Source of the DNA: Colwellia sp.
GTDB lineage: Bacteria > Pseudomonadota > Gammaproteobacteria > Enterobacterales > Alteromonadaceae
Reading direction: 5' to 3'
Length of the DNA stretch: 47,251 nucleotides
Assembly (NCBI GenBank): GCA_026196955.1
Contig: JAPHTO010000069.1
Span: 1 to 47,251 of the forward strand
Shown one piece after another: positions 3,194 through 40,682 of this stretch. A program made the translations under genes and the position numbers. Position 1 is the first letter of the stretch; every line of letters starts with the position of its first letter. Under the pieces are notes generated by a model, which was given only the letters and a program-made list of their open reading frames with translations, did no database searches and was not told where the DNA came from.

Positions 3194-3270
3194 TTAACAA
3201 CAAATCCATTGCCAAAAAACTTGACAATAAATTTATTGCTAATACACTTTAACAATAGATTTATAGCTAA
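3194..3270 (+). repeat. Three imperfect tandem repeats, period 27-28 bases
   Basis: Units start at 3194, 3221 and 3249. The common core is TTRACAATARATTTATTGCTAA; units 2 and 3 agree at about 19 of 22 core positions, and unit 1 is more diverged. The third unit runs into the ribosome binding site of the ATPase gene at 3281. Such spaced repeats next to a start codon look like operator or iteron sites. Confidence 0.6.
3221..3248 (+). promoter_or_regulatory. Possible sigma70 promoter of the ATPase pair
   Basis: A perfect -35 box TTGACA at 3221-3226, a 16-base spacer and a -10-like TACACT at 3243-3248. The -35 box is also the start of the second tandem repeat, so a protein binding the repeats would compete with RNA polymerase. 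This is pattern matching only. Confidence 0.4.
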
Positions 3271-3280
3271 AGGAGGTTTT

Positions 3281-4456
3281 ATGACTGGTCAGGTAGCCTA
3301 TGGTAAAAATTATTTCCCTAGAGAAAAAGATGAAAAACGAATATGGCGTAGGTTAAATCATGGATCTCATTTATTATTACTAGCCCCACGCAGAGTTGGT
3401 AAAACATCGCTTCTTCGTAACTTAGAATTAGCTCCAAACGATGACTATGTTTTTTTATATAACATTGTTCAGTCCTGCTCTACAGTACACGAGTACTATG
3501 AACGTATAATTGAAAACTTATTTAAATCTGAGTTCACTGACAGACTTAACAAATTCACAAATTGGGGAAAAGATGCCTTAACGGATTTTAGAAATAGTAT
3601 AAAAGGCCTCAACTTTAGTGAAGCTGGCATTGAATTTGACAGTCAAGAAAGGACGCTTACTCATAAAGATCTCAAGACACTACTTGATAAAATCAAAATA
3701 AGGGAAAAGCTAATCATAGTTATTGATGAGTTTCCTGACGTTTTAGAGAAAATACATAAAGATCAAGGTCATGGTGCAGCAGAAATATTTTTATCTGGTT
3801 GCCGAGAGCTTTGGCAAGATCCTGCACTAGATCAAAAAATTCAATTTATCTTTACAGGTTCAATTGGGCTTGATTCATTAGTTCATAAGTTAAATTTATC
3901 TGATTTAATCAACGTCCTTATTAATGTAACTGTTGATCCTCTTAACGAAGAAAAAGCGTTTGAGTTTATCGAGTTTATCTCAAGGAAAAGCCAAGAAGAA
4001 ATAACGTTTTCTGATGAAATTAAAACCTATATTCTGAATAAAGTCAGTTGGTATATGCCTTATTATATCGAAATTCTTTTACTTAGTATTGAGGATTACT
4101 GCTGTGAAAACGATATTATAGAACCAAATCCTAACGATATAGATAAAGCATACGAACAACTATTTAGCCAAAATTATTTAGCCAACTTTAATCACTGGGC
4201 TGAAAGGTTAGAGCGACTGGAGAAAACAGAAATTAGTTTTGCACATGAAGTTCTCAATTATATCGCAATTAATGAAACGATCTCCCCACAAAAAATACAT
4301 AATATTAAAGAAGCACCACAAGTAACTTCTGTTAACTCAAACTATGTGGTCGAGTGCTTAATTCATGACGGGTATATTTTTGAAACAGCCAACAGGGAGT
4401 TTCAATTCACCTCTCCTATGTTAAAAGAATGGTGGGGACGTTATGCAAATAAGTAA
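3281..4456 (+). CDS. P-loop ATPase (archaeal-ATPase/AAA-like), first gene of a pair
   Basis: A 391-residue ATPase. Walker A is APRRVGKT at residues 35-42, and Walker B is LIIVIDE at 144-150. A Thr-Gly-Ser motif (FTGSIG) near 207 sits where AAA-type sensor residues occur. The C-terminal 90 residues look like a winged helix ending in FTSPMLKEWWGRY, as in archaeal-type (COG1672-like) ATPases. The ATG at 3281 is chosen because AGGAGG lies 4 bases upstream; an upstream TTG at 3209 would translate the tandem repeats and has no site. The 3' end overlaps the next gene by 14 bases, so the two are translationally coupled. Function is unknown; pairs like this occur in defence and stress islands, but no effector domain is visible here. 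Base composition is visibly more AT-rich than the dmp genes. Confidence 0.85.
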   Translation: MTGQVAYGKNYFPREKDEKRIWRRLNHGSHLLLLAPRRVGKTSLLRNLELAPNDDYVFLYNIVQSCSTVHEYYERIIENLFKSEFTDRLNKFTNWGKDALTDFRNSIKGLNFSEAGIEFDSQERTLTHKDLKTLLDKIKIREKLIIVIDEFPDVLEKIHKDQGHGAAEIFLSGCRELWQDPALDQKIQFIFTGSIGLDSLVHKLNLSDLINVLINVTVDPLNEEKAFEFIEFISRKSQEEITFSDEIKTYILNKVSWYMPYYIEILLLSIEDYCCENDIIEPNPNDIDKAYEQLFSQNYLANFNHWAERLERLEKTEISFAHEVLNYIAINETISPQKIHNIKEAPQVTSVNSNYVVECLIHDGYIFETANREFQFTSPMLKEWWGRYANK

Positions 4457-7169
4457 CTATAAAGAAGGCGTTAAACTATATAACTCACAGAACACATCTT
4501 CAGAGATGGTCAAAAATAGTTTTGTTATTCGCATACGTGAATATAACAAGCTTTGGAAAGCAATCATTAACTCTGACATGGAGCACCCTGAACAACACTA
4601 TATTGTTCAGGGTGTTAGAGGCGCAGGAAAAACAACAATGCTTCGCCGATTAGCTATTGCAGTAGAGGAAAGTGAAGAGCTTACCTCATGGTTAATCCCT
4701 ATCACATTCAAAGAAGAAGAATATGGCATTAGCTCTTTATTTACTTTCTGGGAGCGAATTGCAGAAGAACTAGCTGAATATGATCATACACTCTTTGATT
4801 CACTATTCGATACAATAGATCAATTAAAAGAAAGTGAGATAAAGCAGCTTATTTCACTTATCAACCAAGCATTAATTCATAGCCAAAAAAAAATCATATT
4901 GTTTATAGATAATATCGCTGAGTTATTTGAACAATTTGACCAAGTTGAAAGTGACATGCTAAGAGAGATATTAACGACAAATAATAATATAAGAATTATT
5001 GGTGGTTCAGCAATTCGCTTAGAAGCCTTTTTTGACAACAAAGCACCTTTTTATCAATTTTTTGATATTCACACTCTTCAGGGGCTAAAAGAAAAGGAAA
5101 CAACTGCATTACTTAAAAAATTAAGTGAACATGCTGGAGAAAAAGAACAAAAAAACCTCAATAATTTATTAGAAAAAGAACCTCAAAAGATCGAGTCAAT
5201 AAGGCGACTAACGGGAGGTATCCCTAGAACCATTTCAATATTGTTCAACATACTTGTAGAAGGTCCAAAAGGTAATACTTTTACTTTACTTGAAGAGACT
5301 ATTGATAAAACCACCCCGCTCTATAAACATCGCATGGACGATTTAACCGCACAACAAAAGCCAATAGTGAATGCTATTGCCCTAAACTGGGATGGAATAT
5401 CTGTAAAAGAAATCGCTGAAAAAATAAGATTACCAAGCAAGCAGGTGTCAGCTCAATTAAGGCAGTTAGAAAAACAGTGGATTATTGAAAAAACTACTAC
5501 CAACACTAAAAACCACTTATATGCCCTAAAAGAACGTTTTTTCAATATATGGTATTTAATGCGTTATGGCCGCAGAAAAGACAGAAGAAAAGTATTATGG
5601 CTCACCCAATTCATGGAAATTTGGTGCACTGGCGATGAGCTAAAACAGCGCTCTAAACTATTCACTGAACATTTAAAGGGTAATTGTCATCCCCTGGCTT
5701 CTATTACCTTAGCCAATGCTTTTATCTGTAGTGACAAACTAACTCATGAGGATAAAAATAAAATTTTATCTGCTACTTCTGATTATTTACAAGAATCTGG
5801 AAATGGCAAGTTACATAAAGAGTTACTGTCTCTTTCTGATGAAGACACTAACTCTGAAGTTAACAAATTATGGCAAGAGTTATTAGAATTTGAAGAAAAT
5901 CTAGCTCAAGAGAAGTTAGATAAATTAAAAAGCTTTCTCCAAAAAACAAAGCATAATTATGGACTAGGATTGTTTTACATTAAGATTAAAGAGTTTACTA
6001 AAGCAGAAAAGTGCCTATTAAACGTCAAAACTGCTGATGGAGTGACTTTATTAGCCTTTGTATATAAAGCTCAAGACAAACTCAATTTAGCTATTACGAC
6101 AGCAAAAATAGCTATTACAAAAGAAAGCTACATTGCCTATAAACTATTAGCTGAAATCTACTTACAGCAAGAGAACTTTACTAAAGCAACAGAGTATTAT
6201 TTATTAGCAATAAAGCATGATATTCCTGATTGTTATATTGAGCTGAGTGATATTTATTTAGAAACAAGTCAATTAGCACTTGCTGAAAAGTATGCACTAC
6301 TCGCTATAGAGCATAGAGAAGGTAATGCTCATGTTAAATTAGGTGAAATCTATATCCACCTTGATAAATTCGATAAAGCAAAAGAAATACTTGAAAAAGA
6401 ATTACAAAAAAAATCCTTTGATGGAGTTGCTTATGGATTTTTAGCATGGATTCACCTTCATCAAAATAACATGACTGAAGCTAAAAAGTATTTACAATTG
6501 GGGTTAAAGCAAAACTCCTCAGGAATAAGTGTAGTAGCAGCATATTTCTATTATTGTGAGAAGGATTACAGATCGGCAAAACCATATTTATTGCAAAGTA
6601 TCAAGGAAGGGGCTACTTCCATGCTTTCAATACTTGCATCTATATATCAGATTGAAGGAAATTTACCACTTGCAGAAGAATATTATCTCAAAGCACTTAG
6701 TTCAGGAAACGAGAGCGCAGAAATGAATTTAGCTGATTTTTATTTTTATAATATGCAAACTGAAAATAAAGTGAAAGCTTTAGTGCTAGCTAAAAAGTCA
6801 ATAAAAGCAAATACGACTTTTGAAGCTAAAAACTCATATATATCAATTTTATTGTGGAATAATAACTTTGAATTAGCCACCCAAATAATGGAGTCTTTGC
6901 TAAAAAATATTACTTTTGAAGATCAAGAGCAAGAAAGTCAACTTATCCAATTATTCACTTTATTTTTAGCCAAAGAGCAAACTAATCTAGTCGATAGATG
7001 GTTCAAAAAATATGATATTAAAGAGCGTTTTAAACCATTGTATTACGCCTTAATGTCATTAATGAAAGAACAATACCCTAATGAGATATTACGCATGGGC
7101 TCAGAATTGACTGAAACCGTAAATGAAATATTAGAGGAGATCGAAGGTTTAGCTTTAATATATAAATAA
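4443..7169 (+). CDS. STAND-like ATPase with winged helix and TPR repeats
   Basis: A 908-residue protein. Walker A is GVRGAGKT at residues 57-64; Walker B is IILFIDN at 151-157, with Asn where a catalytic Glu is often found. An LTGGIPRT motif near 260 resembles the GxPR sensor of STAND/MNS ATPases. A winged helix follows at about 300-355 (ISVKEIAEKIRLPSKQVSAQ). From about 500 to 800 there are tandem tetratricopeptide-type helices (for example TKATEYYLLAIKHD and LPLAEEYYLKALSSG). Order ATPase-wHTH-TPR is that of STAND sensors, in which the repeats recognise a signal and the ATPase oligomerises. It begins inside the previous gene, behind GGGGA at 4436-4440. No toxin, nuclease or protease domain is seen in either partner. 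What it senses and does is unknown. Confidence 0.85.
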   Translation: MQISNYKEGVKLYNSQNTSSEMVKNSFVIRIREYNKLWKAIINSDMEHPEQHYIVQGVRGAGKTTMLRRLAIAVEESEELTSWLIPITFKEEEYGISSLFTFWERIAEELAEYDHTLFDSLFDTIDQLKESEIKQLISLINQALIHSQKKIILFIDNIAELFEQFDQVESDMLREILTTNNNIRIIGGSAIRLEAFFDNKAPFYQFFDIHTLQGLKEKETTALLKKLSEHAGEKEQKNLNNLLEKEPQKIESIRRLTGGIPRTISILFNILVEGPKGNTFTLLEETIDKTTPLYKHRMDDLTAQQKPIVNAIALNWDGISVKEIAEKIRLPSKQVSAQLRQLEKQWIIEKTTTNTKNHLYALKERFFNIWYLMRYGRRKDRRKVLWLTQFMEIWCTGDELKQRSKLFTEHLKGNCHPLASITLANAFICSDKLTHEDKNKILSATSDYLQESGNGKLHKELLSLSDEDTNSEVNKLWQELLEFEENLAQEKLDKLKSFLQKTKHNYGLGLFYIKIKEFTKAEKCLLNVKTADGVTLLAFVYKAQDKLNLAITTAKIAITKESYIAYKLLAEIYLQQENFTKATEYYLLAIKHDIPDCYIELSDIYLETSQLALAEKYALLAIEHREGNAHVKLGEIYIHLDKFDKAKEILEKELQKKSFDGVAYGFLAWIHLHQNNMTEAKKYLQLGLKQNSSGISVVAAYFYYCEKDYRSAKPYLLQSIKEGATSMLSILASIYQIEGNLPLAEEYYLKALSSGNESAEMNLADFYFYNMQTENKVKALVLAKKSIKANTTFEAKNSYISILLWNNNFELATQIMESLLKNITFEDQEQESQLIQLFTLFLAKEQTNLVDRWFKKYDIKERFKPLYYALMSLMKEQYPNEILRMGSELTETVNEILEEIEGLALIYK

Positions 7170-9250: not shown

Positions 9251-9496
9251 CTAGCCATTACACAAAAAAGCTTCTGGTGAATTATCATCTTCATCCAATG
9301 TCGTCCAAATGGGAATACCCGACTTATCGCTAATGCTGTGATCATAATCAATCATCAGATAGGTTTTACCATACCCAGCAGGAGCTTTGATAAAGACCAT
9401 TTTAGCGTTATCTTCTAGCGCGCTATTTATTTTCTCTATCAAGTACTCTCTTTTAAGAGGGCGCTTAGGCTTGTTTGGCACAAAATATTTTTGCAA
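9251..9496 (-). pseudogene. N-terminal fragment of a MalT/LuxR-type (LAL) regulator
   Basis: Only 81 codons. The start resembles MalT- and AlkS-like regulators: a basic N-terminus with RPLKREYLIEKI, then a P-loop KAPAGYGKT at about residues 38-46, then WTTLDEDDNSPEAF, matching the usual W-x-LD-xxDNxPxxF segment. Complete members are about 800-900 residues with a C-terminal LuxR helix-turn-helix, so more than 90 percent is missing. A stop follows directly and no continuation was found in the next 200 bases. It lies just behind the phenol regulator. It is most simply a decayed regulator gene; a functional 81-residue ATP-binding peptide is unlikely. Confidence 0.65.
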
Positions 9497-9612: not shown

Positions 9613-11316
9613 TCATTTATTTTCTTGTATTTTCTTTAAGCGATAAGCTAGAGCTGGGCGGGTAAGACCTAATTTTCGAGCGGCTTTGGATATATTATTG
9701 TTGGTTTGATTCATTGCTTTGTTGATTAATTGTTTTTCTAATGCCTCAAGGCTGAAGTTCTCGTTAAGCATTTCCTCTACATCAGGCATTTCTCTTCGTT
9801 CACAAAGTGGTGCTTTTTCACAAAGGTGCCCTAGACTATTAATAACGTTCAGAGGATGGCTAGGCTCAGAGAGAGATGGAAAAATATTTGCCAGATCAAT
9901 CAAATGATTATTATCGGTCAGAATAACGCCCCGCTCTATCATATTTTCAAGCTCTCTGATATTTCCAGGCCATTTATATTGTGTCAATGCTTGCATTGCT
10001 CTATCAGAAACTCCCGGAGTCTTTTTATTATATTGAGCACAGTATTTCTTTAAAAAATGCGTGATAAGTAAGGGGATATCTTCGCTACGCTCCCTTAAAG
10101 ACGGAATAATAATAGGATAAACATTTAACCGATAAAATAAGTCAGCACGGAAGCGGCCTTCTTGGACTGCTTTCTCTAAATCTTCATTAGTTGCTGCAAT
10201 AACACGCACATCAATTTTTCTAGTGCGAGTATCACCCACTCGTTCTAATTCACTTTCTTGTAATACTCTTAATAGTGATGCTTGAGCCCGTGGCGATAGT
10301 TCGATAACCTCATCAAGAAAAATAGTACCTTGGTTAGCTCGTTCAAACTTCCCTGCTCTTGTCTGAGTTGCCCCCGTGAAGGCACCTTTTTCCACACCGA
10401 ACAGTTCAGCTTCAATCAAGTCTGGTGGTATACAAGCACAGTTAACCGCAATAAAAGGCTCTTTCACTCTGTCGCTATTAGTATGAAGCCCTTTGGCAAC
10501 GGCCTCTTTACCAACACCTGTTTCTCCTTGTAGCAGTACAGTAACTTTACTTGTAGCGGCCTTTTTAATGAGATGACAAGTATTTTTAAATGCTTGAGAA
10601 TCACCAACACTATTAAGTAACACATCATTTTCAGATTCAGTATTTAAAAATTGGTTTTTAAGTTCACTAACCTCGTGCTGCAATGCGAGTAACTCTTCAA
10701 TAATGGGATCTGGTAGCAGATACTTTTCGGTATCATCATCATCTCCCCACTCTTCTGTTGTTTTACCTACAATATGGCAATTCTCAGCACCGGTACCCGC
10801 GCACTGAGTTTCTTTAAACAGTACTTGTCGTTTCATATAAAAGGTAGTAAAACCACTGGCATAACCACATAACGCCCAGCAGATTGGCTCTGATGATAGG
10901 CCATAATTAGCGATATGATTATCTACTTCGTGAGAATGTTCCCAGTCAAATTCCGCATAAAAGTCACCTTTTTCAACATCAAAGTCCAGTGCTGTGGGGG
11001 TTACTTTTACTAAGCCTTCTATACTATGTAACTGTGGACCTACCATAAAAGCCTCAGAGGTAGTCATATCAGGACGAAGCTTTTGCGCAAATTCAGCATC
11101 TCGTATACCACTGTGGTAGCCAAAACGCATTAAGAGTCCTTTGGCACGCTCAACACCCAATGTATCTATCAACTCTTTTCGTAATAACCCCATCACTGCA
11201 GAATGAATAAGTATCATGCGTTGTTCACCAAGCCATATCTTGCCTTCTTTACTATCAAAGTGAATCTTGTCGATTAGATCTTGAGAATCAGGCAATGTTA
11301 GTGATTTTTGTACCAT
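9613..11316 (-). CDS. dmpR: DmpR/MopR-type sigma54 activator, phenol sensor
   Basis: A 567-residue enhancer-binding protein. Residues 1-200 are the XylR_N/V4R sensor; about 235-470 is the AAA+ domain with GETGVGKE at 264-271, GAFTGA at 311-316 and Walker B IFLDEV; a Fis-type helix-turn-helix ends the protein (SKAARKLGLTRPALAYRLKK). By alignment to MopR from memory, the zinc ligands are Cys146, Glu169, Cys172 and Cys180, and the two residues that hold the phenol hydroxyl are His97 and Trp125, all present. Phe90 and Phe123 of the pocket also agree, while Phe167 replaces a Tyr. It is divergent from dmpK and should activate the sigma54 promoters at 11580 and 16637, and perhaps 28497. The ribosome binding site is weak. 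Confidence 0.92.
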   Translation of the reverse strand: MVQKSLTLPDSQDLIDKIHFDSKEGKIWLGEQRMILIHSAVMGLLRKELIDTLGVERAKGLLMRFGYHSGIRDAEFAQKLRPDMTTSEAFMVGPQLHSIEGLVKVTPTALDFDVEKGDFYAEFDWEHSHEVDNHIANYGLSSEPICWALCGYASGFTTFYMKRQVLFKETQCAGTGAENCHIVGKTTEEWGDDDDTEKYLLPDPIIEELLALQHEVSELKNQFLNTESENDVLLNSVGDSQAFKNTCHLIKKAATSKVTVLLQGETGVGKEAVAKGLHTNSDRVKEPFIAVNCACIPPDLIEAELFGVEKGAFTGATQTRAGKFERANQGTIFLDEVIELSPRAQASLLRVLQESELERVGDTRTRKIDVRVIAATNEDLEKAVQEGRFRADLFYRLNVYPIIIPSLRERSEDIPLLITHFLKKYCAQYNKKTPGVSDRAMQALTQYKWPGNIRELENMIERGVILTDNNHLIDLANIFPSLSEPSHPLNVINSLGHLCEKAPLCERREMPDVEEMLNENFSLEALEKQLINKAMNQTNNNISKAARKLGLTRPALAYRLKKIQENK

Positions 11317-11420
11317 GATATTTTTCTTCTGCTGTTGTTATTTTATACCTATTGTGCGGTGCCTTTTTTTGAAAAACAACGTAAAAGGTTTATTTTTTTT
11401 TATTAAATAACGCTTTTAAG

Positions 11421-11437
11421 TTGAATCATAAGATCAA
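11421..11437. promoter_or_regulatory. Candidate upstream activating site of the dmpK promoter
   Basis: TTGAATCATAAGATCAA, a TTGA...TCAA dyad resembling the DmpR/XylR enhancer (TTGAYCAATTGATCAA) but one base longer. It is centred about 177 bp upstream of the predicted start, the usual distance for this family. The rest of the 318-base dmpR-dmpK gap is AT-rich and would suit IHF bending, but no clear IHF site was assigned. Confidence 0.5.
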
Positions 11438-11579
11438 TTTCATTTTTATAAATTCATTATTTCATCACCTCTTGTAAATAGATAATTCACATTAAATTTC
11501 ACTCTATTTTGTTTCAAATAAAAATAAACCCCTTTGTTAACAATAATATAAAAACAGTTTCTTCTTGTTTTTTATTTAC

Positions 11580-11595
11580 TGGCATACCCGTTGCT
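11580..11595 (+). promoter_or_regulatory. Sigma54 promoter of dmpKLMNOP
   Basis: TGGCATACCCGTTGCT has GG and GC exactly 10 bases apart, as in the -24/-12 consensus TGGCACG-N4-TTGCW. The predicted start is near 11606, about 29 bases before dmpK. It faces away from the divergent sigma54 activator gene. Confidence 0.88.
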
Positions 11596-11634
11596 ACATC
11601 ATGAATGTTCAAATATAAATCACAGGAGATCATG

Positions 11635-11961
11635 ATGGGGAATAGTCAACAACATACCCACTGTTTAAAAGATGAAAAACCAACTTTTCAACAAATGGCC
11701 AAATATGTTCGGGTACGTAGTGCTGAAAATTCACGGTTTGTTGAGTTTGATTTTGCCATTAGTGATCCGAGCCTATTCGTTGAATTGGTTTTACCAAAAA
11801 AGGCCTTTGAACAATTTTGTCAGGCTAACGATGTGGTGTTTATGTCACAAGAGCAGCAGGATGCTAACGATACTGAGATGGAAAAATGGCGCTACGGTGA
11901 AGATACGCTGATGGCAAAAAATCGCAATGAGCAGCATTCTCAAGTAAAAAATGCTGATTAA
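11635..11961 (+). CDS. dmpK: Phenol hydroxylase assembly/auxiliary subunit (P0)
   Basis: 108 residues. The core VRVRSAENSRFVEFDFAISD and the following FVELVLPKKAFEQFC are the recognisable DmpK/PhK signature. The protein is not needed for catalysis itself; in the Pseudomonas system it helps assemble active, iron-loaded hydroxylase. It is somewhat longer than the usual 90 or so residues because of N- and C-terminal extensions. AGGAG at 11624-11628 is followed by ATGATG; the second ATG (11635) has the better spacing of 6, and 11632 is the alternative. First gene of the sigma54-driven hydroxylase operon, 35 bases ahead of dmpL. Confidence 0.9.
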   Translation: MGNSQQHTHCLKDEKPTFQQMAKYVRVRSAENSRFVEFDFAISDPSLFVELVLPKKAFEQFCQANDVVFMSQEQQDANDTEMEKWRYGEDTLMAKNRNEQHSQVKNAD

Positions 11962-11996
11962 ATAAAAATAAATACGCTGAGAGTAGGGGTAAGAAT

Positions 11997-12983
11997 ATGT
12001 CCGTTGAAATAAAAACAGCAATATTAGAACCAGTTAGAAACACGTTTGCTCATATAGAACGTCGTTTTGGTGATAAGCCTGCAACACGTTATCAAGAAGC
12101 GACTTATGATGTTGCTTCAGAAGTTAATTTTCACTATCGCCCGTTATGGCAACCTGAGTTCGAACTCAATGATCCTGGCCGTACAGCAGTAGTGATGAAA
12201 GATTGGTATGCATTTAAGGATCCTCGTCAGTTTTATTACGGTACTTATGTTCAAGCCAGAGCTAAACAACAAGAAGTTGCCGAGAGTAATTTTGCCTTTT
12301 TTGAAAAGCGTGATTTAACACGATTTCTTTCCGAAGACGTTAAAGAAAAACTGGTTCGCTTAGTAATACCATTTCGTCATGTCGAACAAGCCGCCAATTT
12401 GAACAATGTATACGGTAGTTCATTCGGCTACGGTACTGCCATTACACAAGCATTATTATACAACGGCATGGATCGTTTAGGTAATGCCCAATACCTTTCT
12501 CGCATTGGTCTTATTTTAGATGGTAACAGCGGAGAAACTTTAACAAAAGCAAAGCATCATTGGATGGAAGACGCTGCTTGGCAAGGAGTTCGAGCTTATT
12601 GTGAAGCAAATATTTGTGTTGAAGATTGGTTTGAATCCTTTGTTGCCCAAGATGTGGTGTTAGATACCCTAGTATCAGATCTTGTTTACAATCAATTTGA
12701 TGCCTGGTTACAAGAAAATAATGCCCAAGATGTTGGCATGCTAACCGAATTTATTCGCAACTGGCATAAAGACACAAACCGTTGGGTTGATAGTGTCGTG
12801 AAAGTAGCCGCGGCAGAGTCTGCAGAAAATAAGGCTAAATTAGAAGAATGGATTCACGTATGGAAAAACAAAGCGACCATAGCTTTAGCGCCACTGGCAG
12901 CTGAAATGGTTGGTGAAGGTGCACTAGAGTTAGCGGTTGCAACATTAACTAAACGTTTAAATAAAGCAGGCCTTTTCAAATAG
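11997..12983 (+). CDS. dmpL: Phenol hydroxylase oxygenase beta subunit (P1)
   Basis: 328 residues, the normal length for the DmpL/TouE/TomA1 beta chain of bacterial multicomponent monooxygenases. It shares the ferritin-like helical fold of the catalytic chain but lacks the paired ExxH metal motifs, as expected. Family-like stretches include WYAFKDPRQFYYGTYV near 67 and NLNNVYGSSFGYGTAITQA near 135. It forms the (alpha beta gamma)2 hydroxylase with DmpN and DmpO. A GGGG-containing site precedes the ATG by about 7 bases. The gene lies between dmpK and dmpM in the standard order. Confidence 0.93.
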   Translation: MSVEIKTAILEPVRNTFAHIERRFGDKPATRYQEATYDVASEVNFHYRPLWQPEFELNDPGRTAVVMKDWYAFKDPRQFYYGTYVQARAKQQEVAESNFAFFEKRDLTRFLSEDVKEKLVRLVIPFRHVEQAANLNNVYGSSFGYGTAITQALLYNGMDRLGNAQYLSRIGLILDGNSGETLTKAKHHWMEDAAWQGVRAYCEANICVEDWFESFVAQDVVLDTLVSDLVYNQFDAWLQENNAQDVGMLTEFIRNWHKDTNRWVDSVVKVAAAESAENKAKLEEWIHVWKNKATIALAPLAAEMVGEGALELAVATLTKRLNKAGLFK

Positions 12984-13007
12984 TCGATTTATTAGAGGAT
13001 TAAAATA

Positions 13008-13277
13008 ATGTCAAAAGTTTATATCGCATTACAAGACAATGATGAGTCTCGCTATATTGTCGAGGCAATCGAAGAAGTGAATGAAGATTGCACAATTATC
13101 CATCAACCCGCAATGATTCGTATTGAAAGAGAACATAAGCTTGTTGTTGTGCGTGAAGTAGTGGAAGAGAAAATGGGCCGTGATTGGGATATTCAAGAAA
13201 TGCATCTCAATTTAATCACCCTGGGTGGTAACGTCGATGAAGATGATGATTTTTTCACGCTAGAGTGGAAACAATAG
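13008..13277 (+). CDS. dmpM: Phenol hydroxylase coupling/regulatory protein (P2)
   Basis: 89 residues, the size of cofactor-free MmoB/DmpM coupling proteins. It begins SKVYIALQDNDESRYIVEAI and continues with an acidic C-terminus, both characteristic. The protein binds the hydroxylase and allows substrate oxidation and electron transfer to be coupled; it has no cysteine pair or metal site. It is followed 11 bases later by dmpN, with an AGGAG in between. Confidence 0.92.
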   Translation: MSKVYIALQDNDESRYIVEAIEEVNEDCTIIHQPAMIRIEREHKLVVVREVVEEKMGRDWDIQEMHLNLITLGGNVDEDDDFFTLEWKQ

Positions 13278-13288
13278 GAGAAAATAAC

Positions 13289-14791
13289 ATGGCTGCTAAA
13301 AAATTAAATATTAAAGACAAGTATCGTCTACTTACCCGAGATTTAGACTGGGACTTCTCTTATGAAGATAGGAAAGACGCATTCCCTTACGAAGAATTTG
13401 AAGGGCTCAAAATTACTGACTGGGATAAATGGGAAGACCCGTTCCGTTTAACCATGGATACGTACTGGAAATATCAGGCTGAAAAAGAGAAAAAGTTATA
13501 TGCTATTTTTGATGCCTTCTCTCAAAATGATGGCCATTTAAATGTTTCTGACCCGCGTTATGTTAATGCCATCAAGCTCTTTTTAACGGGTGTATCTCCT
13601 TTAGAATACCAAGCTTATCAAGGTTTTGCCCATGTAGGACGTCAATGTGGTGGTGTTGGTGCTCGTGTTGCGTGTCAAATGCAAGCACTTGATGAATTAC
13701 GTCATGTACAAACACAAATACATGCGATGAGTCACTACAATAAATTTTTCGATGGTTTGCAAGAGTTCAGTCATCAGCACGATCGCGTTTGGTACTTATC
13801 TGTACCTAAGTCCTTTTTCCTTGATGCGCGTTCTGCAGGTCCATTTGAATTTATGGTCGCCATCGGTTTCTCATTTGAATATGTATTAACTAACTTGTTG
13901 TTCGTTCCTTTTATGTCTGGAGCGGCACATAACGGTGATATGGCCACAGTGACCTTTGGTTTCTCCGCGCAGTCAGATGAAGCCCGTCATATGACGCTTG
14001 GTTTAGAAGTTATCAAATTCTTTTTGGAACAACATGAAGACAACCTGCCTATTGTACAAAAATGGATAGATAAATGGTTCTGGCGTGGTACTCGTCTGTT
14101 AAGTATCGTCGCGATGATGATGGATTACATGCTGCCTAATAAAGTAATGTCTTGGAAAGAAGCTTGGGAAGTATACTTTGAAGATGCCGGTGGTTCGTTA
14201 TTTAAAGACTTAGCCCGTTACGGTATTCGTATGCCTAAATACTCTGAAGTCATCGAGAAAGAAAAAGAGCATGTATCACACCAAGCCTGGTGGACATTCT
14301 ACACGCACGGACATGCAACTGGCTTTCATACATTTATCCCTTCAGATGAAGAGCTTGACTGGTTATCAGAAAAATACCCAGATACTTTTGATAAATACTA
14401 TCGCCCATTGTGGGAAATGGCCAAAGAGAAAGAAGCTAAAGGTGAGCGTTTTTACACCACAGGTCTGCCACAATTATGTCAAACATGCCAAATTCCGATG
14501 TTGTTTACCGAAATGGACAATCCAAACCAGAATTCAATGCGCGATACGGTTTATAAAGGTGAACGTTACCATTTCTGCTCTGATGGTTGTTGTGACATTT
14601 TCGAAGAAGAGCCTGAAAAATATGTTCAATCTTGGTTGCCTGTACATCAGATCTTCCAAGGTAACTGTGGTGGTCCAGAAATGACTGATATTCTGAGTGA
14701 ATATTACAAAATTAATGTTGGCGCAGACAATATGGATATGAAAGGGTCACCAGACGAAGAACGCTGGAATAAATGGAAAGGTACAGCCTAA
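13289..14791 (+). CDS. dmpN: Phenol hydroxylase oxygenase alpha subunit (P3), diiron
   Basis: 500 residues; catalytic chain of the phenol hydroxylase that converts phenol to catechol with O2 and NADH. The six diiron ligands are visible: Glu106, Glu136 and His139 (DELRH), Glu197, and Glu231 and His234 (DEARH). Near residues 396-440 is a YHS-type zinc segment (CQTCQIPM, then YHFCSDGCC), usual in this family. The ATG at 13289 is preceded by AGGAG; an upstream frame start inside dmpM lacks support and would add eight residues. It is the third oxygenase-operon gene of standard order, between dmpM and dmpO. Confidence 0.95.
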   Translation: MAAKKLNIKDKYRLLTRDLDWDFSYEDRKDAFPYEEFEGLKITDWDKWEDPFRLTMDTYWKYQAEKEKKLYAIFDAFSQNDGHLNVSDPRYVNAIKLFLTGVSPLEYQAYQGFAHVGRQCGGVGARVACQMQALDELRHVQTQIHAMSHYNKFFDGLQEFSHQHDRVWYLSVPKSFFLDARSAGPFEFMVAIGFSFEYVLTNLLFVPFMSGAAHNGDMATVTFGFSAQSDEARHMTLGLEVIKFFLEQHEDNLPIVQKWIDKWFWRGTRLLSIVAMMMDYMLPNKVMSWKEAWEVYFEDAGGSLFKDLARYGIRMPKYSEVIEKEKEHVSHQAWWTFYTHGHATGFHTFIPSDEELDWLSEKYPDTFDKYYRPLWEMAKEKEAKGERFYTTGLPQLCQTCQIPMLFTEMDNPNQNSMRDTVYKGERYHFCSDGCCDIFEEEPEKYVQSWLPVHQIFQGNCGGPEMTDILSEYYKINVGADNMDMKGSPDEERWNKWKGTA

Positions 14792-14875
14792 TCCTTAATT
14801 CAAAACGTAAGTCAAAAACTCAATTTAACTAATAACCTGGGCTACCTGTGGTGGCCCATAATATGGAGAATAATT

Positions 14876-15238
14876 ATGCCAGTTTATGCTTTGAAACCGA
14901 ATTATAAAGGTGAGCGCATGGATCGTGTTGAAAACTTTGGTGGTAACTTGATTGTTTATTTTGGTTGGGATGAACACCGTATGTTTTGTGCTGCAAAAGC
15001 ATTTCCTTTACCGCCCTCAACCCCCTTTGCTGCGGTGATGGAAAATGTGTTACCAGAAGCTTTTGGCCAACACCCAGAATTTTCCCAGATAAATTGGGAT
15101 ACTGCTGAATGGCTGTTAAATAACGAACCATTCAAACCACAAATGAATGCCACGCTTGAGTCACAAGGTATTGACCACAAGTCTCTTATTCGTTTTAAAA
15201 CTCCAGAGTTAAAAGGCTATGCTAGCGCAGGTGTTTAA
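14876..15238 (+). CDS. dmpO: Phenol hydroxylase oxygenase gamma subunit (P4)
   Basis: 120 residues beginning with PVYALKPNYKGERMDRVENF, typical of DmpO/PhO, and including FGWDEHRMFCAAKAFPLPP. It is the small gamma chain of the hydroxylase. GGAGAA stands 8 bases before the ATG. The 84-base gap after dmpN contains a small stem (GGGCTACC with GGTGGCCC, 14839-14857) but no terminator. Length is normal for the family. Confidence 0.93.
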   Translation: MPVYALKPNYKGERMDRVENFGGNLIVYFGWDEHRMFCAAKAFPLPPSTPFAAVMENVLPEAFGQHPEFSQINWDTAEWLLNNEPFKPQMNATLESQGIDHKSLIRFKTPELKGYASAGV

Positions 15239-15258
15239 TAAGTAAAAGGTAGAATATC

Positions 15259-16320
15259 ATGAGTTACGAAGTTACAGTTGAACCAACCGGCGACATAATT
15301 GAAGTCGAAGAAGGACAAACAATTCTTGATGCCGCTTTACGCCAAGGTGTATGGATTCCGTTTGCTTGCGGTCATGGCACTTGTGCTACTTGTAAGGTAC
15401 AAGTCCTAGAAGGTGAAGGTGATTTAGGTAATGCATCCCCTTTTGCGCTAATGGATGTAGAACGTGAAGAAGGTAAGGTGTTAGCCTGTTGCTGTACACC
15501 TGAATCAGACATGGTTATTGAAGCTGATATAGACGTTGATGATGATTTTATTGGCTATCCAATACAGGATTTCATTGGCACGGTTACCGAAATAAAAGAC
15601 TTATCACCGACAATAAAAGGTATTCTATTTACCCTAGATAAGGGCATTGAATTCCAAGCGGGTCAGTATATAAACCTGAATATTCCGGGTGTAGAAGGCA
15701 GTCGCGCTTTTTCAATTGCCAATAAACCCTCTGACTCTCAAATACTTGAATTACATGTACGCCAAGTGCCTAATGGTGCCGGTACAACCTATCTACACGA
15801 ACAGTTACAGGTAGGAGATACATTAGATATTAGTGGTCCATACGGTCAGTTTTTTGTCCGTAAATCCGATGAACAAGGAGCAATATTTATTGCTGGTGGA
15901 TCCGGTCTTTCTAGTCCGCAATCAATGATACTAGACATGCTTGAAGAACAAGACGGTCGACCAATAACGCTTTTTCAGGGCGCTCGTAATGTTTCTGAGC
16001 TTTACAATAAAGATATTTTTGAAAAACTAGCGCAAGAGTTTGACAATTTTACTTATATCCCAGCGTTAAATGCACCCGAAGAAAGTGATGATTGGCAGGG
16101 GTTTACCGGTTTTGTTCATGAAGCTGCAATAGAGCATTTTGATGGTCGTTTCGAAGGTAATAAAGCTTACCTTTGTGGTCCTCCACTGATGATTGATGCT
16201 GCTATCACCGCGTTAATGCAAGGACGTCTATTCGAACGAGATATACACATGGAGCGTTTTGTAACCGCTGCTGATGGCGAAAAAGAGCAAAATAAATCAG
16301 CTCTATTTAAGCGAATTTAA
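15259..16320 (+). CDS. dmpP: Phenol hydroxylase reductase (P5), 2Fe-2S and FAD
   Basis: 353 residues in three domains. Residues 1-90 form a plant-type 2Fe-2S domain with Cys37, Cys42, Cys45 and a further ligand in the CCC at 77-79. RAFS at 149-152 is the FAD site of ferredoxin-reductase-like proteins. GGSGLSSP at 213-220 and CGPPLMIDAA near 305 form the NADH side. It passes electrons from NADH to the DmpN diiron centre. Last gene of the hydroxylase operon: a terminator follows 30 bases later, which is unlike the classical dmp operon in which transcription simply continues into dmpQ. Confidence 0.94.
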   Translation: MSYEVTVEPTGDIIEVEEGQTILDAALRQGVWIPFACGHGTCATCKVQVLEGEGDLGNASPFALMDVEREEGKVLACCCTPESDMVIEADIDVDDDFIGYPIQDFIGTVTEIKDLSPTIKGILFTLDKGIEFQAGQYINLNIPGVEGSRAFSIANKPSDSQILELHVRQVPNGAGTTYLHEQLQVGDTLDISGPYGQFFVRKSDEQGAIFIAGGSGLSSPQSMILDMLEEQDGRPITLFQGARNVSELYNKDIFEKLAQEFDNFTYIPALNAPEESDDWQGFTGFVHEAAIEHFDGRFEGNKAYLCGPPLMIDAAITALMQGRLFERDIHMERFVTAADGEKEQNKSALFKRI

Positions 16321-16346
16321 TGTAATTATCTAAACTCCCATTCAGA

Positions 16347-16383
16347 TAAAAAACCCACAATTATAATGATTGTGGTTTTTTTA
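16347..16383 (+). terminator. Rho-independent terminator after dmpP
   Basis: CCACAAT at 16355-16361 pairs with ATTGTGG at 16369-16375 around a 7-base loop, followed by eight T. The A-run on the left side makes it usable in the reverse direction as well. It divides the phenol hydroxylase operon from the meta-cleavage operon. Confidence 0.75.
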
Positions 16384-16467
16384 TCTTGAAAACTCGTAAA
16401 ACAAGACATTCCCCTTCTATATTAAAAACAATGTCTGTCAACGCTATTTTTAAACTGTATTCCCCAT

Positions 16468-16483
16468 CTAATCAAATCATCAA
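16468..16483 (-). promoter_or_regulatory. Candidate upstream activating site of the dmpQ promoter
   Basis: Read on the minus strand it is TTGATGATTTGATTAG, 12 of 16 positions identical to the DmpR/XylR enhancer consensus. It is about 187 bp upstream of the predicted sigma54 start. A separate short dyad, GTGAAA-T-TTTCAC at 16512-16524, lies nearer the promoter. Confidence 0.4.
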
Positions 16484-16636
16484 ATCGACACTTTAACTAA
16501 TTAATTATTTGGTGAAATTTTCACTTTCACAAGCGCATTAAAAGAGTAACACCATCTCATAAAACAACTTAGAAAAAGTTATTTTATCCATAAAAATCAA
16601 CAAACTAAAGATTGACTACATTCGTTTTTTGGATAC

Positions 16637-16652
16637 TGGCACAGCGGTTGCT
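16637..16652 (+). promoter_or_regulatory. Sigma54 promoter of the meta-cleavage operon
   Basis: TGGCACAGCGGTTGCT, an almost perfect -24/-12 element with the required 10-base spacing between GG and GC. Predicted start near 16663, about 37 bases before dmpQ. It would let the lower pathway be induced independently of read-through from dmpP. Confidence 0.9.
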
Positions 16653-16699
16653 TTAGTCACTGTAGCAATAACACTAAATAAACCCAAATGGAGCACCCT

Positions 16700-16993
16700 A
16701 TGACAGTAAAACAGCTTTACCGAATTGAAGTTGTGAATCGGAAGCTTAATTTTTACTGCTCTGAAGATCAGGTGTTATTAGTTGGCATGGAACGCCGAAA
16801 TAAAAGTTTTATTCGTGTTGGTTGTAGAGGTGGTGGTTGCGGTGTCTGCAAGGTGCGCATTATCGACGGAGATTATGAAAGAAAACGTATGAGTCGTGCG
16901 CATATATCAGAAGCAGAAGAAAAGCAGGGCTATGCGCTAGCTTGCCGAGTTCTTCCCCGCTCAGATTTGCTGATTGAATCTGAGCAGTTATAG
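16700..16993 (+). CDS. dmpQ: Chloroplast-type 2Fe-2S ferredoxin of the meta pathway
   Basis: 97 residues with Cys42, Cys47, Cys50 and Cys82 as 2Fe-2S ligands (GCRGGGCGVCKV, then ALACRV). XylT/DmpQ ferredoxins re-reduce the active-site iron of catechol 2,3-dioxygenase after it is oxidised by substituted catechols. The ATG at 16700 has GGAG at 6 bases; an in-frame ATG at 16688 contains that site and is unlikely. First gene after the second sigma54 promoter, 75 bases before dmpB. Confidence 0.92.
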   Translation: MTVKQLYRIEVVNRKLNFYCSEDQVLLVGMERRNKSFIRVGCRGGGCGVCKVRIIDGDYERKRMSRAHISEAEEKQGYALACRVLPRSDLLIESEQL

Positions 16994-17068
16994 CAATGAA
17001 GCCATAGCCTGTTAAAAGACGGCTATTGATAAAACTAAAAAGTTGAAAAATCACTTGAGGATAAAAAG

Positions 17069-17992
17069 ATGAAAAAAGGTGTCATGCGTCCAGGACATAT
17101 CCAAATTCGTGTATTAGATATGAAAGAAGCACTGGAACATTATCGTGATTTACTGGGCTTGATTGAAGTTGAAACTGACAATCAGGGACGTGTATACCTG
17201 AAAGGGTGGACTGAAGTTGACAAATTTTCTGTGGTGCTGCGTCTAGCAGATGAACCGGGAATGGACTTTGTCGGTTACAAAGTACTCAACAATGAGACTT
17301 TAGAGCAATTACATCAAGAGCTCATTGACTTTGGTTGTAGCGTTGAAGAAATTCCTGCAGGTGAACTCAATGGCTGTGGTCGTCGTATTCGTTTTGACTC
17401 ACCAACGGGCCATATGTTTGAAATTTATGCCGAGAAAGAGCAGACGGGCAAATGGGGTATCGCTGAGGTTAATCCTGAAGCCTGGCCACGTAACCTTACC
17501 GGTATGAAGGCAACCCGTTTTGATCATTGTCTACTGTATGGGCCAAACATCGCTGGTACGCTAGATTTGTTCCAAAAAGTATTGGGCTTTGATCTGGCGG
17601 AAGAAACGATTGATGAGAATGGCTTCCGTATTGCTCAGTTCTTAACCGTTGGCATGAAAGCACATGATGTTGCTTTCATCGAACACCCTGAGCCGGGTAA
17701 ATTCCACCACTCCTCCTTTTTCCTCGAAACATGGGAAGACGTGCTACGAGCAGCAGATCTTATTGCCATGGAAGATGTCTCAATCGATATCGGACCCACA
17801 CGTCATGGTTTAACTCACGGTAAAACTATCTACTTTTTTGATAAGTCTGGTAATCGTACCGAAGTATTTTGTGGTGGCGATTATCACTACCCTGATCACC
17901 CGCCAGTAACCTGGACAGCTGATCAATTAGGCAAAGCCATTTTCTATCACGATCGCGTGTTAAATGAACGATTCCTAACCGTGTTGACCTAA
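17069..17992 (+). CDS. dmpB: Catechol 2,3-dioxygenase (extradiol, class I.2.A)
   Basis: 307 residues with two glyoxalase/VOC domains. The Fe(II) ligands His153, His214 and Glu265 fall at exactly the positions known from metapyrocatechase (XylE). The start [18 protein letters not shown] matches the family N-terminus. It opens catechol to 2-hydroxymuconic semialdehyde. Only the C-terminal VOC repeat carries the metal site, as usual. A strong stem-loop follows the stop codon, so expression relative to dmpC may be set there. Confidence 0.96.
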
Positions 17993-18005
17993 TTTTAGGT
18001 CATTA

Positions 18006-18041
18006 AAATCGCGTTAGCATAAACTAACGCGATTTCATTTT
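18006..18041 (+). terminator. Strong stem-loop with T-run between dmpB and dmpC
   Basis: Perfect 12-bp stem: AAATCGCGTTAG at 18006-18017 and CTAACGCGATTT at 18024-18035, 6-base loop, then CATTTTTT. It has the form of an intrinsic terminator but lies inside a pathway operon, 14 bases after dmpB. It may attenuate downstream expression or stabilise the dmpQB transcript; no promoter was recognised between it and dmpC. Confidence 0.65.
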
Positions 18042-18085
18042 TTATCGATCTGAACAGATCTAGTAATGCAAGTAGAGTGCGAGAA

Positions 18086-19546
18086 ATGAAAGAATTTAAA
18101 AACTTTATTAATGGTGAGTATGTAAGCTCAGCAAGCGGCAAGACCTTTGAAAACCGTAATCCTGTTAATAATAGCCTGATAGGCATGGTTCACGAAGCGG
18201 GTGAACCAGAAGTCGTCGCGGCCGTTGCTGCTGCCAAATCAGCAATGGAAGGTCCTTGGGGAAAAATGACCCAATCTGAGCGGATTAAACTACTCGACAG
18301 AGTAGCTGAACGCATAAACGAGCGCTTTGACGAGTTTCTTATTGCAGAATGTAAAGATACTGGTAAACCGCATAAAATCGCTTCACACATCGATATACCG
18401 CGTGGTGCTGCCAATTTTAAAGCATTTTCAGATACCTTGGCAAACCACCCTACAGAAGCATTTAAGCTAGACACCCCTGATGGTAAGTCTGCCGTTAATT
18501 ATGGTCATCGAACACCAAAAGGCGTGATTGCAGTGATTAGCCCTTGGAACCTGCCGTTATTGTTAATGACTTGGAAGGTTGGGCCTGCTCTGGCCTGTGG
18601 TAACACTGTTGTCGTTAAACCATCAGAAGAAACGCCAGCGACTGCAACCTTGTTGGGTGAAGTAATGAATGAATGTGGTGTGCCTAAAGGTGTTTATAAC
18701 GTGGTACATGGCTTTGGCCCTAACTCAGCAGGCGCTTTACTAACCGCTAACCCAGATGTGAGAGCAATCACTTTTACAGGCGAAACACGTACCGGTGAAA
18801 CCATTATGCGTGCCGCCTCAGTAGGCCTTAGAAATATTTCCCTTGAATGCGGTGGTAAAAACCCAGGCCTAGTCTTTGCCGACTGCGATATGGACAAAGC
18901 GATTGAAGGCACCATGCGTTCAGCTTTTGTCAATTGCGGTCAAGTTTGCTTAGGTACCGAGCGCATTTATGTAGAACGCTCTATTTTTGAAGAATTCGTC
19001 AGTCGATTAAAAGCAGGCGTGGCAAAACTAAAACTAGGTCAACCTGAAGATCCAAACGTTGATTTTGGCCCACTGGTTAGCCAAAAACATAAAGAAAAAG
19101 TGCTTTCCTATTACCGTTTAGCCGTGGAAGAAGGTGCAACCGTAGTGATCGGTGGTGGTGTTCCGGAGATGGGTGCTGAATTGAATGCTGGAGCATGGGT
19201 AGAGCCAACAATTTGGACGGGTTTAGCCGACGATGCTCGCGTGATTAATGAGGAAATATTCGGCCCCTGCTGTCATATTCGCCCCTTCGATACCGAGGAA
19301 GAGGTTATTGCTTTGGCAAATGATACCAAATACGGCCTGTCCGCAACCATTTGGACTGAAAACTTATCCCGCGCATCACGCGTAGCCGAAAAGATGGAAG
19401 TGGGTATTGCTTGGGTCAATAGCTGGTTCTTGCGCGATTTACGTACCGCTTTTGGCGGTGCTAAAGAATCTGGCATTGGCCGTGAAGGCGGCACACATGG
19501 GCTAGAGTTTTATACCGAACTTAAAAATATCTGTATCAAGTTGTAA
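18086..19546 (+). CDS. dmpC: 2-Hydroxymuconic semialdehyde dehydrogenase
   Basis: 486 residues, the same length as XylG/DmpC. The start MKEFKNFINGEYVSSASGKTF fits the family (that segment is the first 21 residues); a GTG nine bases upstream is rejected. Aldehyde dehydrogenase motifs are ISPWNLPLLLMTWKVGPALA near 150, ECGGKN near 252 with the general-base Glu, and NCGQVCLG near 285 with the nucleophile Cys. It oxidises the ring-cleavage product with NAD+ to 2-hydroxymuconate, entering the 4-oxalocrotonate branch. With dmpD missing, this is the only route visible here. Confidence 0.95.
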   Translation: MKEFKNFINGEYVSSASGKTFENRNPVNNSLIGMVHEAGEPEVVAAVAAAKSAMEGPWGKMTQSERIKLLDRVAERINERFDEFLIAECKDTGKPHKIASHIDIPRGAANFKAFSDTLANHPTEAFKLDTPDGKSAVNYGHRTPKGVIAVISPWNLPLLLMTWKVGPALACGNTVVVKPSEETPATATLLGEVMNECGVPKGVYNVVHGFGPNSAGALLTANPDVRAITFTGETRTGETIMRAASVGLRNISLECGGKNPGLVFADCDMDKAIEGTMRSAFVNCGQVCLGTERIYVERSIFEEFVSRLKAGVAKLKLGQPEDPNVDFGPLVSQKHKEKVLSYYRLAVEEGATVVIGGGVPEMGAELNAGAWVEPTIWTGLADDARVINEEIFGPCCHIRPFDTEEEVIALANDTKYGLSATIWTENLSRASRVAEKMEVGIAWVNSWFLRDLRTAFGGAKESGIGREGGTHGLEFYTELKNICIKL

Positions 19547-19668
19547 TGATTTATAGCTATTCAATTTGATATGAATTGGCGCTGTTGTGGCATGTGTTGC
19601 CCCCTGCAGCTGCCGAACATTAATTTTAATAAATCGTTTAATCGAGACAACGAGTCGAGAACATAATT

Positions 19669-20454
19669 ATGAAACAAGAACAGATTATCCAATGCGGTGA
19701 TGAGCTTTATGATGCGATGAGGCTGCGTCAGCCCATACGCCCTTTTACCGAGCGCTTTGATGACTTTACCATTGATGATGCCTATCACGTATCTTTGCGT
19801 ATGGTCGAGCGTCGTGTGCAATCAGGCGAACGTATCATTGGCAAGAAAATTGGCGTCACCTCTAAAGCGGTACAGAATATGTTGAATGTGTACCAGCCTG
19901 ATTTTGGTTATTTGACCGATAGCATGGCATACAGTGAAGGTGAGGAAATGCCAATCAGCAAGCTATTAATGCAACCTAAAGCGGAAGGTGAAATTGCTTT
20001 TATCTTGAAAAAAGATCTTATGGGACCCGGTGTAACTAATGCCGATGTACTCGCCGCGACTGATTGTGTCATTCCTTGCTTTGAAGTGGTTGATTCACGC
20101 ATCGAAAACTGGCAAATCAAAATTCAAGACACGGTTGCTGATAATGCCTCTTGTGGCTTATTTATCTTAGGTGATAAAGCGATCAGCCCACGCAAAATCG
20201 ATCTAACGACCTGTGGCATGGTGGTTGAGAAAAATGGCTCGATCATTTCAACGGGTGCGGGTGCTGCGGCACTAGGAAGCCCAATCAATTGCGTAACATG
20301 GCTGGCTAATACCTTAGGTAAATTTGGTATTCCTTTAAAAGCTGGTGAAGTCATCTTATCGGGTTCGCTTGTACCATTAGAGCCAGTTAAAGCTGGCGAT
20401 CATATGAGTGTCAGTATTGGCGGAATGGGTTCTGCATCGGTGCGTTTTGTTTAA
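19669..20454 (+). CDS. dmpE: 2-Oxopent-4-enoate hydratase
   Basis: 261 residues of the fumarylacetoacetate-hydrolase-like hydratase/decarboxylase family (MhpD, XylJ, DmpE). Family stretches are [12 protein letters not shown] near 62, [11 protein letters not shown] near 103 with metal-binding Glu residues, and [23 protein letters not shown] near 142. It hydrates 2-oxopent-4-enoate to 4-hydroxy-2-oxovalerate and probably forms a complex with DmpH, to which it is related. The 122-base gap before it, where dmpD normally lies, holds no gene and no coding remnant I could recognise. Confidence 0.93.
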
Positions 20455-20479
20455 TCGCGATCAGTTAGAGGAAATAAAA

Positions 20480-21391: not shown

Positions 21392-21406
21392 GAGGAGTAC
21401 TAAATA

Positions 21407-23226: not shown

Positions 23227-23249
23227 GTAAGGTAAGCAAGGAATGACTA

Positions 23250-40601: not shown

Positions 40602-40682
40602 GGTTTTGTACTCATTTCGTTGTTTCGAGTACTCCATCATAGTAAATTGCGTATATAAATTTTAGAGGCTAAAGTGTAAAGT

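Follow-up and report, generated by a model that had tools for sequence, protein, structure and literature searches.

A pair of overlapping ATPase genes, here called P1 and P2, is described from a 47,251-nucleotide stretch of a Colwellia sp. genome (assembly GCA_026196955.1, contig JAPHTO010000069.1; hereafter the window). The two genes form a conserved unit whose order and adjacency are kept across Pseudomonadota. P2 combines a fixed core, of the type found in signal transduction ATPases with numerous domains (STAND), with a hypervariable repeat sensor, and a regular array of repeats in front of P1 is taken as a third conserved part. Together these features suggest an autoregulated two-protein receptor, probably anti-phage, a reading to which we give about an even chance and in which the defence role is what we infer. 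An earlier interpretation of the letters alone (the sequence-only reading) had described genes of 391 and 908 codons overlapping by 14 bases, and both reading frames are indeed intact and share positions 4443-4456. The promoter array, the loss of a catalytic glutamate from P2, the mosaic sensor and a second pair in the same genome go beyond that description. The features are collected in Table 1; L numbers denote loci and G numbers genomes.

Table 1. Features of the gene pair and its promoter region, and P2-like genes found without P1
Feature	Position	Strand	Remarks
P1	3281..4456	+	391-aa ATPase_2 protein with predicted C-terminal winged helix; Walker B D149, E150
P2	4443..7169	+	908-aa STAND-type ATPase with winged helix and TPR sensor; Walker B D156, N157
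P2 conserved core (NTPase and winged helix, aa 1-405)	4443..5657	+	Identity and dN/dS against C. marinimaniae
P2 hypervariable sensor (aa 406-790, mostly TPR)	5658..6812	+	Compared with C. marinimaniae, and within Moraxella and the P. rubra group
P2 conserved C-terminal cap (last 70 aa)	6957..7166	+	87% aa identity to C. marinimaniae (sensor 54%)
Array site 1, putative operator	3195..3214	.	TAACAACAAATCCATTGCCA, degenerate; three-copy direct repeat
Array site 2, putative operator	3222..3241	.	TGACAATAAATTTATTGCTA; overlaps -35-like hexamer
Array site 3, putative operator	3250..3269	.	TAACAATAGATTTATAGCTA; directly before ribosome-binding site
Promoter-like TTGACA-16-TACACT	3221..3248	+	Within array; 10/12 matches
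P2-like gene without P1	L109:8938-12174, L111:8938-12174		Beside two cyclase genes and a ThiF gene
P2-like gene without P1	L110:1043-4144		Beside a cyclase gene and a Pycsar effector

Conservation of the pair

The genes keep this order in four Pseudoalteromonas genomes and in Colwellia marinimaniae, whose proteins are 89% and 73% identical to those of the window. The window's own genome also holds a second pair that has diverged to 25% and 24% identity where it aligns. Orthologues are patchy within the genus, occurring in 2 of 39 genomes, own included. Profile searches with P1 were run on three overlapping samples, each of which contains the own genome. P1 was detected in 10 of 295 genomes of the family sample at 1e-10, in 16 of 369 of the class sample at 1e-15 (11 strong, below 1e-40, and 5 weak and partial) and in 6 of 398 of the phylum sample. 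A reverse search of the class sample with the P2 core, scoring at most five candidates per genome, returned 11 of 369 genomes at 1e-15, and these are the same 11 that carry a strong P1; none of the five genomes with a weak P1 gave a match in this search.

The sequence-only reading would have been undermined had the two genes rarely been neighbours elsewhere. P1 adjoins P2 in 15 of the 16 loci fetched from the class and phylum samples, the exception being a P1 fragment (L072); in three of the 15 (L067, L073 and L077) P2 leaves the contig. P1 and P2 also lie side by side in 9 of 13 family stretches, counting one whose P1 has a stop (L031) and two that repeat other loci (L025 and L026, which repeat L004 and L003). 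The remaining four comprise remnants (L037), a P1-PtuA fusion (L034), a stretch cut by the contig end (L035) and a fragment (L036). Distances among P1 proteins and among P2 cores correlate with r=0.93 over 24 pairs, as expected under co-inheritance. Decayed copies are seen at L031, L037, L040, L042 and L072. In an empty-site test, 15 of the 39 genus genomes had the gene upstream of the pair, and the window's other flanking genes appear in 0 of the 14 non-window stretches around that gene, of which ~1.5 kb per side was covered. The G+C content of the pair is 31-34%, that of the 3 kb on each side 37-40%. No DNA-level match was found in E. coli, and Rfam gave none within the window.

Domain organization and predicted activities

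P1 reaches the gathering score of the Pfam family ATPase_2 (PF01637; 34.3 bits, cut-off 33.2), which bears out its earlier assignment as an archaeal-type ATPase. P2 passes AAA_16 (34.0 bits, cut-off 32.6), with a nucleoside triphosphatase (NTPase) match that begins at residue 27, and TPR_8 (51.3 bits, cut-off 25.7), which provides the helical repeat sensor characteristic of STAND proteins. The second hallmark of that class, a P-loop NTPase followed by a winged helix, is found by way of AAA_16 and of P2 relatives: MarR_2 is under its cut-off in the window P2 (21.3 against 27) and over it in L002 (37.1) and L030 (34.9). NACHT, too, is under its cut-off in the window P2 (19.4 against 26.7) and over it in L028, L029 and L038. 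These family matches, together with adjacency across Pseudomonadota, uphold the sequence-only view of a real, conserved and STAND-like pair. Since no effector is recognised at either end of P2, which is read as the mark of a split system, P2 is filed as STAND-like and not as a complete STAND protein. Its length ranges from 552 to 1295 amino acids (aa) across the pairs.

The Walker B motifs of the two proteins have taken different courses. Across the 24 pairs, which include close relatives, every P1 retains Asp-Glu and every P2 has another residue in place of the glutamate (Asn in 23 and Ser in one). From this pattern P1 is predicted to hydrolyse ATP and P2 to do so poorly. Predicted structures, each built on an alignment of six sequences, are of middling confidence (predicted local distance difference test, pLDDT, 65.7 and predicted TM-score, pTM, 0.57 for P1; 67.4 and 0.36 for P2) and are informative on folds, not on interfaces. 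The P1 model matches archaeal ATPases, ORC/Cdc6 and RuvB (residues 218-391), all with large root-mean-square deviations, and it is from this middling-confidence model that a C-terminal winged helix is predicted. The P2 model is better from residue 490 onward, where pLDDT is mostly above 75, than over the NTPase. Its Foldseek matches include PDB chain 6mfv_A at rank 15, with low TM-scores.

A repeat array at the promoter

Directly 5' of P1, three tandem near-palindromes with spacings of 27 and 28 occupy positions 3195-3269 (period 27, p=0.008) and probably act as operators. The middle site covers the TTGACA hexamer of a promoter-like sequence, and AAAGGAGG stands 5' of the P1 ATG. Between positions 3000 and 7500 there are 17 promoter-like sites, three of them with 10/12 matches, and shuffled sequences give 17.7, so that it is the location in the array that supports this promoter. 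A similar layout in other letters precedes P1 in Pseudoalteromonas, Moraxella and others. In a strict scan for palindrome triplets, 13 of 36 loci were equalled by none of 200 shuffles, and these 13 include four near-duplicates from the P. rubra group and three from Moraxella; the window and C. marinimaniae arrays were missed because their sites are degenerate. Other lineages have a GTAC-centred array of period 16, for which 6 of 9 tested loci reach p<=0.0043.

A sequence-independent periodicity test was applied to the 130 bases upstream of P1 at 30 loci and to 132 control upstream regions, leaving out near-duplicates (L005, L007, L039 and L040) and broken or fused genes (L031, L034, L036 and L072). 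At 19 of the 30 loci p was 0.01 or less; ten of these have a period of 16, seven have 27/28, and 32 and 22 occur once each. Three of the 132 controls passed; two of them see the array, being the regions upstream of C. marinimaniae P1 and of the divergent gene with which P1 shares it. Regardless of significance, the best period is 16/32 at 14 loci and 27/28 at 10; 24 of 30 thus fall in a set of four periods out of 24 that was picked after the data were seen (P=4e-14; after thinning 19 of 24, P=3e-11). Another best period is found at L069, L075, L076, L077 and L081, none significant at 0.01, and at L074 (22 bp, significant). On the P1 tree, the nine loci of one clade (support 1.0) have a period of 27/28 without exception, and 13 of 19 other loci have 16, counting six periods that are not significant at 0.01 (L004, L006, L066, L002, L042 and L070).

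The array persists upstream of a decayed pair with deletions in both genes (L037:7574-9155; period 28, p=0.004). Repeats of 14-16 bp also lie upstream of five unpaired P1 relatives, which are solo PF01637 ATPases from genomes without a P2 match (L054-L058; p<=0.01 in 5/5). Where P2-like genes occur without P1 (three loci), p was 0.002-0.004 at two near-identical loci and 0.2 at the third. Because unpaired P1 relatives have periodic repeats as well, P1 is the likeliest reader of the array, to which it would bind. A helical-phase rule, prompted by the difference of one turn between 16 and 27, was dropped because the solo relatives at 14-15 bp do not fit it.

Further sites were sought in 12 genomes with a clade-consensus pattern and reversed controls. 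The only match in the own genome (<=3 mismatches) is site 2 of the pair itself; since the pattern misses sites 1 and 3, weaker own-genome sites elsewhere are possible. Six places were found in G271 against none in the reversed control, two of the six being the pair's own, and six in G010, taken as a pairless genome, against three in the control. The pattern does not reach the pairs' own sites in G209, G218 and G676.

A hypervariable sensor on a fixed core

The contrast between a fixed P2 core and a hypervariable TPR/repeat sensor holds in three lineages (Colwellia, Moraxella and the P. rubra group). Compared with C. marinimaniae, the core of the window P2 retains 89% aa identity, far above the sensor (Table 1). 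The two parts of the core are 86% and 94% identical, with ratios of nonsynonymous to synonymous divergence (dN/dS) of 0.085 and 0.020, and the two parts of the sensor are 49% and 57% identical, with ratios of 0.26 and 0.28. As dS is equal in core and sensor (1.10 and 1.14) and dN is higher in the sensor (0.34 versus 0.065), the Colwellia sensor appears to have undergone fast protein change. Two Moraxella plasmids present another picture, in which a low core dS of 0.16 (97% identity) stands against a sensor dS of 3.5 (interval 1.4 to ceiling; 57% identity), and this fits exchange inside the gene. Six comparisons within the P. rubra group gave 96-99% identity and dS of 0.08-0.21 for the core, and 68-77% and 0.42-0.73 for the sensor. 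In all three lineages amino acid identity is higher over the last 70 codons than over the sensor; dS does not always show this difference.

Genomic neighbourhood

All three Moraxella osloensis plasmids (L038, L039 and L040) have defence-type genes next to the pair. Upstream in L038 are an annotated QatD, QueC-like and P-loop NTPase genes with an insertion sequence between them, and a PD-T4-6-like kinase; downstream are dUTPase, PRTase-CE, ORC-CDC6-like, CARF and N6-methylase genes. L040 has the same downstream set and, upstream, transport and metabolic genes. In L039, P2 overlaps a PD-Lambda-4/Avs4-like gene. Outside Moraxella, a Ppl-like gene directly follows the pair in G904, and at L034:396-3283 a P1-like ATPase domain is fused to a Septu PtuA-type ATPase and followed by PtuB in an overlapping frame; no second fusion was found among 59 relatives of the L034 genome. 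On three alphaproteobacterial plasmids a P2-like gene occurs unaccompanied by P1, next to cyclase or Pycsar genes (Table 1).

Neighbours were scanned with PADLOC at E<=1e-20, covering 112 proteins from 25 loci (G904 included): 107 of 204 neighbour open reading frames (ORFs) and five of the window. Matches to mad3 and mad8 were traced to the ABC ATPase of the window and to a protein resembling UvrA. By eye, we take the GajB and RTasHel matches to be a UvrD-type helicase, those to BrxHI to be DEAD-box helicases and the RtcR match to be the window's DmpR-type regulator.

A gene for an ERCC4/HhH nuclease lies directly 5' of P1 in three P. rubra strains (L005:7276-7914, also L006 and L007). It has dS of 0.03-0.05 between the three, is absent from the L004 ORFs at that place, has no PADLOC match, and is possibly a passenger or an effector. 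Elsewhere in the window, an ORF of 81 aa at 9251-9496 (minus strand) begins like an ATPase and appears by eye to be the remnant of a MalT/LuxR-type regulator, with no Pfam match. Positions 9613-23831 and 38886-40640 presumably hold an aromatic (phenol-type) degradation cluster with two similar sigma54-type regulators. A TonB-dependent receptor-like ORF of 310 aa at 41678-42610 (minus strand) is, by eye, probably truncated.

Proposed function and its alternatives

If the pair is a receptor, the repeat domain of P2 would keep the protein closed until a foreign, probably phage, protein is met. ATP-bound P2, being poor at hydrolysis, may then remain open and assemble with P1, which would supply the ATPase activity of the assembly. 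Cooperative binding of the array by one of the winged helices, with that of P1 the likelier, could hold the operon low at rest, and release or assembly would lift the repression. The final toxic or blocking step might be taken by P1 itself or by another protein recruited to the complex. Sensor binding, assembly, repression and output are all proposals. A narrower form of the same reading, which we consider rather doubtful, anchors the receptor on DNA: P1 and P2 would form an ORC-like assembly on their own array, and recognition of an invader by the hypervariable TPR sensor of a P2 that hydrolyses poorly would remodel it, so that sensor, autoregulator and trigger are one. On that account the array geometry would be inherited with the protein clade, starting from an ancestral 16 bp and lengthened once, by about a helical turn, to 27, and no effector domain of a known kind would be present.

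The sequence-only reading had proposed an anti-phage or stress-related role. Defence gains support because sensors are hypervariable and plasmid copies adjoin defence genes; it stays conjectural, given where most copies lie. Several observations weigh against it or against parts of the model. Most of the 25 scanned loci lie among ordinary genes and not in defence islands, and possibly defensive neighbours, among the best 25 of 47 families, amount to one Ppl, two PDC-S01 ATPases and a HEAT/caspase-like protein at L078. Pfam, NCBIfam and PADLOC recognise no effector domain in P1 or P2, as the sequence-only reading had said of the pair. No match to the pair was found in 50,697 phage records, nor in viral contigs by pattern scans. 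A short P2-like protein of a Segatella plasmid, outside the 24 pairs, retains Asp-Glu, and array periodicity is not significant at 11 of 30 loci. As to the sensor, its dN/dS is 0.17-0.32 and not above 1, and the yardstick for its variability was the rest of P2 and the flanking genes, not other TPR genes. In the P. rubra group, flanking genes span dS of 0.03-2.4 and the sensor does not exceed many of them; with the core unusually alike, a recent spread of the core explains the data as well as sensor exchange does.

Among the alternatives, the ordinary surroundings of most loci speak for a MalT-like pair of transcription regulators that responds to a host metabolite or stress and has targets beyond its own genes. 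The array suggests DNA binding, the domain order is that of MalT and PH0952 (available text of PMC6468293), and the regulon search is a weak test, as its pattern misses two of the window's three sites. Such a regulator is nevertheless unlikely: the consensus matches the own genome once, at the pair; presence in the genus is patchy; and the sensor varies far beyond what a fixed metabolite would lead one to expect. The overlapping two-gene layout with its promoter array, the occurrence of copies on plasmids and the frequent decay would equally suit a selfish, self-repressing module of the toxin-antitoxin or addiction kind. We regard this as distinctly improbable, since both partners are large conserved ATPases with no toxin-like small protein between them, and simple addiction would have no use for a hypervariable sensor.

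The resemblance of the P1 model to ORC/Cdc6 and RuvB folds and the regular 16 or 27 bp repeats recall an AAA+ winged-helix protein on iteron-like repeats, that is, the remnant of an ORC-like initiator or partition system. Here the repeats lie directly 5' of the start codon and cover a promoter-like site, and P2 with its variable sensor would be left unexplained, making this account very improbable. A chance neighbourhood of two unrelated host ATPases, for which no supporting point was found, is refuted by the conserved adjacency, the recovery of the same 11 genomes from both searches and the correlated distances, and its probability is negligible.

Should the receptor reading be right, a sparse but wide-ranging two-ATPase receptor would be added to bacterial immunity. 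Its sensor variation would be readable from existing genomes, and the promoter array would make the resting state testable. The pair also offers a handle on solo PF01637 ATPases, given the periodic repeats upstream of its five unpaired relatives.

Comparison with known systems

As the sequence-only reading had suggested, the pair appears so far to be undescribed: no named family or system covers it in Pfam, NCBIfam or PADLOC. No paper on it was found, judging by titles and the start of abstracts, which is weak evidence, and none on solo PF01637 ATPases. Absent library and literature matches are weak evidence of novelty and not proof that the pair is unknown. MADS membership was rejected as the mad8 matches (E 1e-4 for P1, 6.6e-6 for P2) are not specific; the model also matches L068:12428-15301, UvrA-like by eye, at 1e-38. 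Septu (PtuA-PtuB) resembles the pair through the single fusion at L034, where PtuB lies downstream. Membership was set aside, with a best PtuA match of P2 of only E 0.012 and neighbouring ORFs of other kinds by eye. Avs and bNACHT proteins share the STAND core and repeat sensor, and the P2 relatives at L028, L029 and L038 pass NACHT; the window pair differs in having no N-terminal effector, two genes and a promoter array. No Avs model matches P1 or P2 at E<=1, and the NTPase match starts at residue 27, so that P2 was not assigned to that group.

P1 differs from the archaeal Walker-type ATPases of PF01637 (2qen, 2fna) in being encoded together with P2. P2 is closest in plan to the TPR-sensor STANDs MalT, PH0952 (6MFV) and AfsR, having like them a nucleotide-binding domain, a winged helix and a TPR superhelix; this order is given for MalT and PH0952 in the accessible part of PMC6468293. 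It departs from them in having no recognised terminal effector or DNA-binding domain, in its partnership with a second ATPase and in the loss of its Walker B glutamate. With the STAND antigen sensors diversified by diversity-generating retroelements, as far as the accessible part of PMC10907252 presents them, the pair shares the principle of combining a STAND core with a diversified sensor; here the diversity looks like the product of divergence and recombination.

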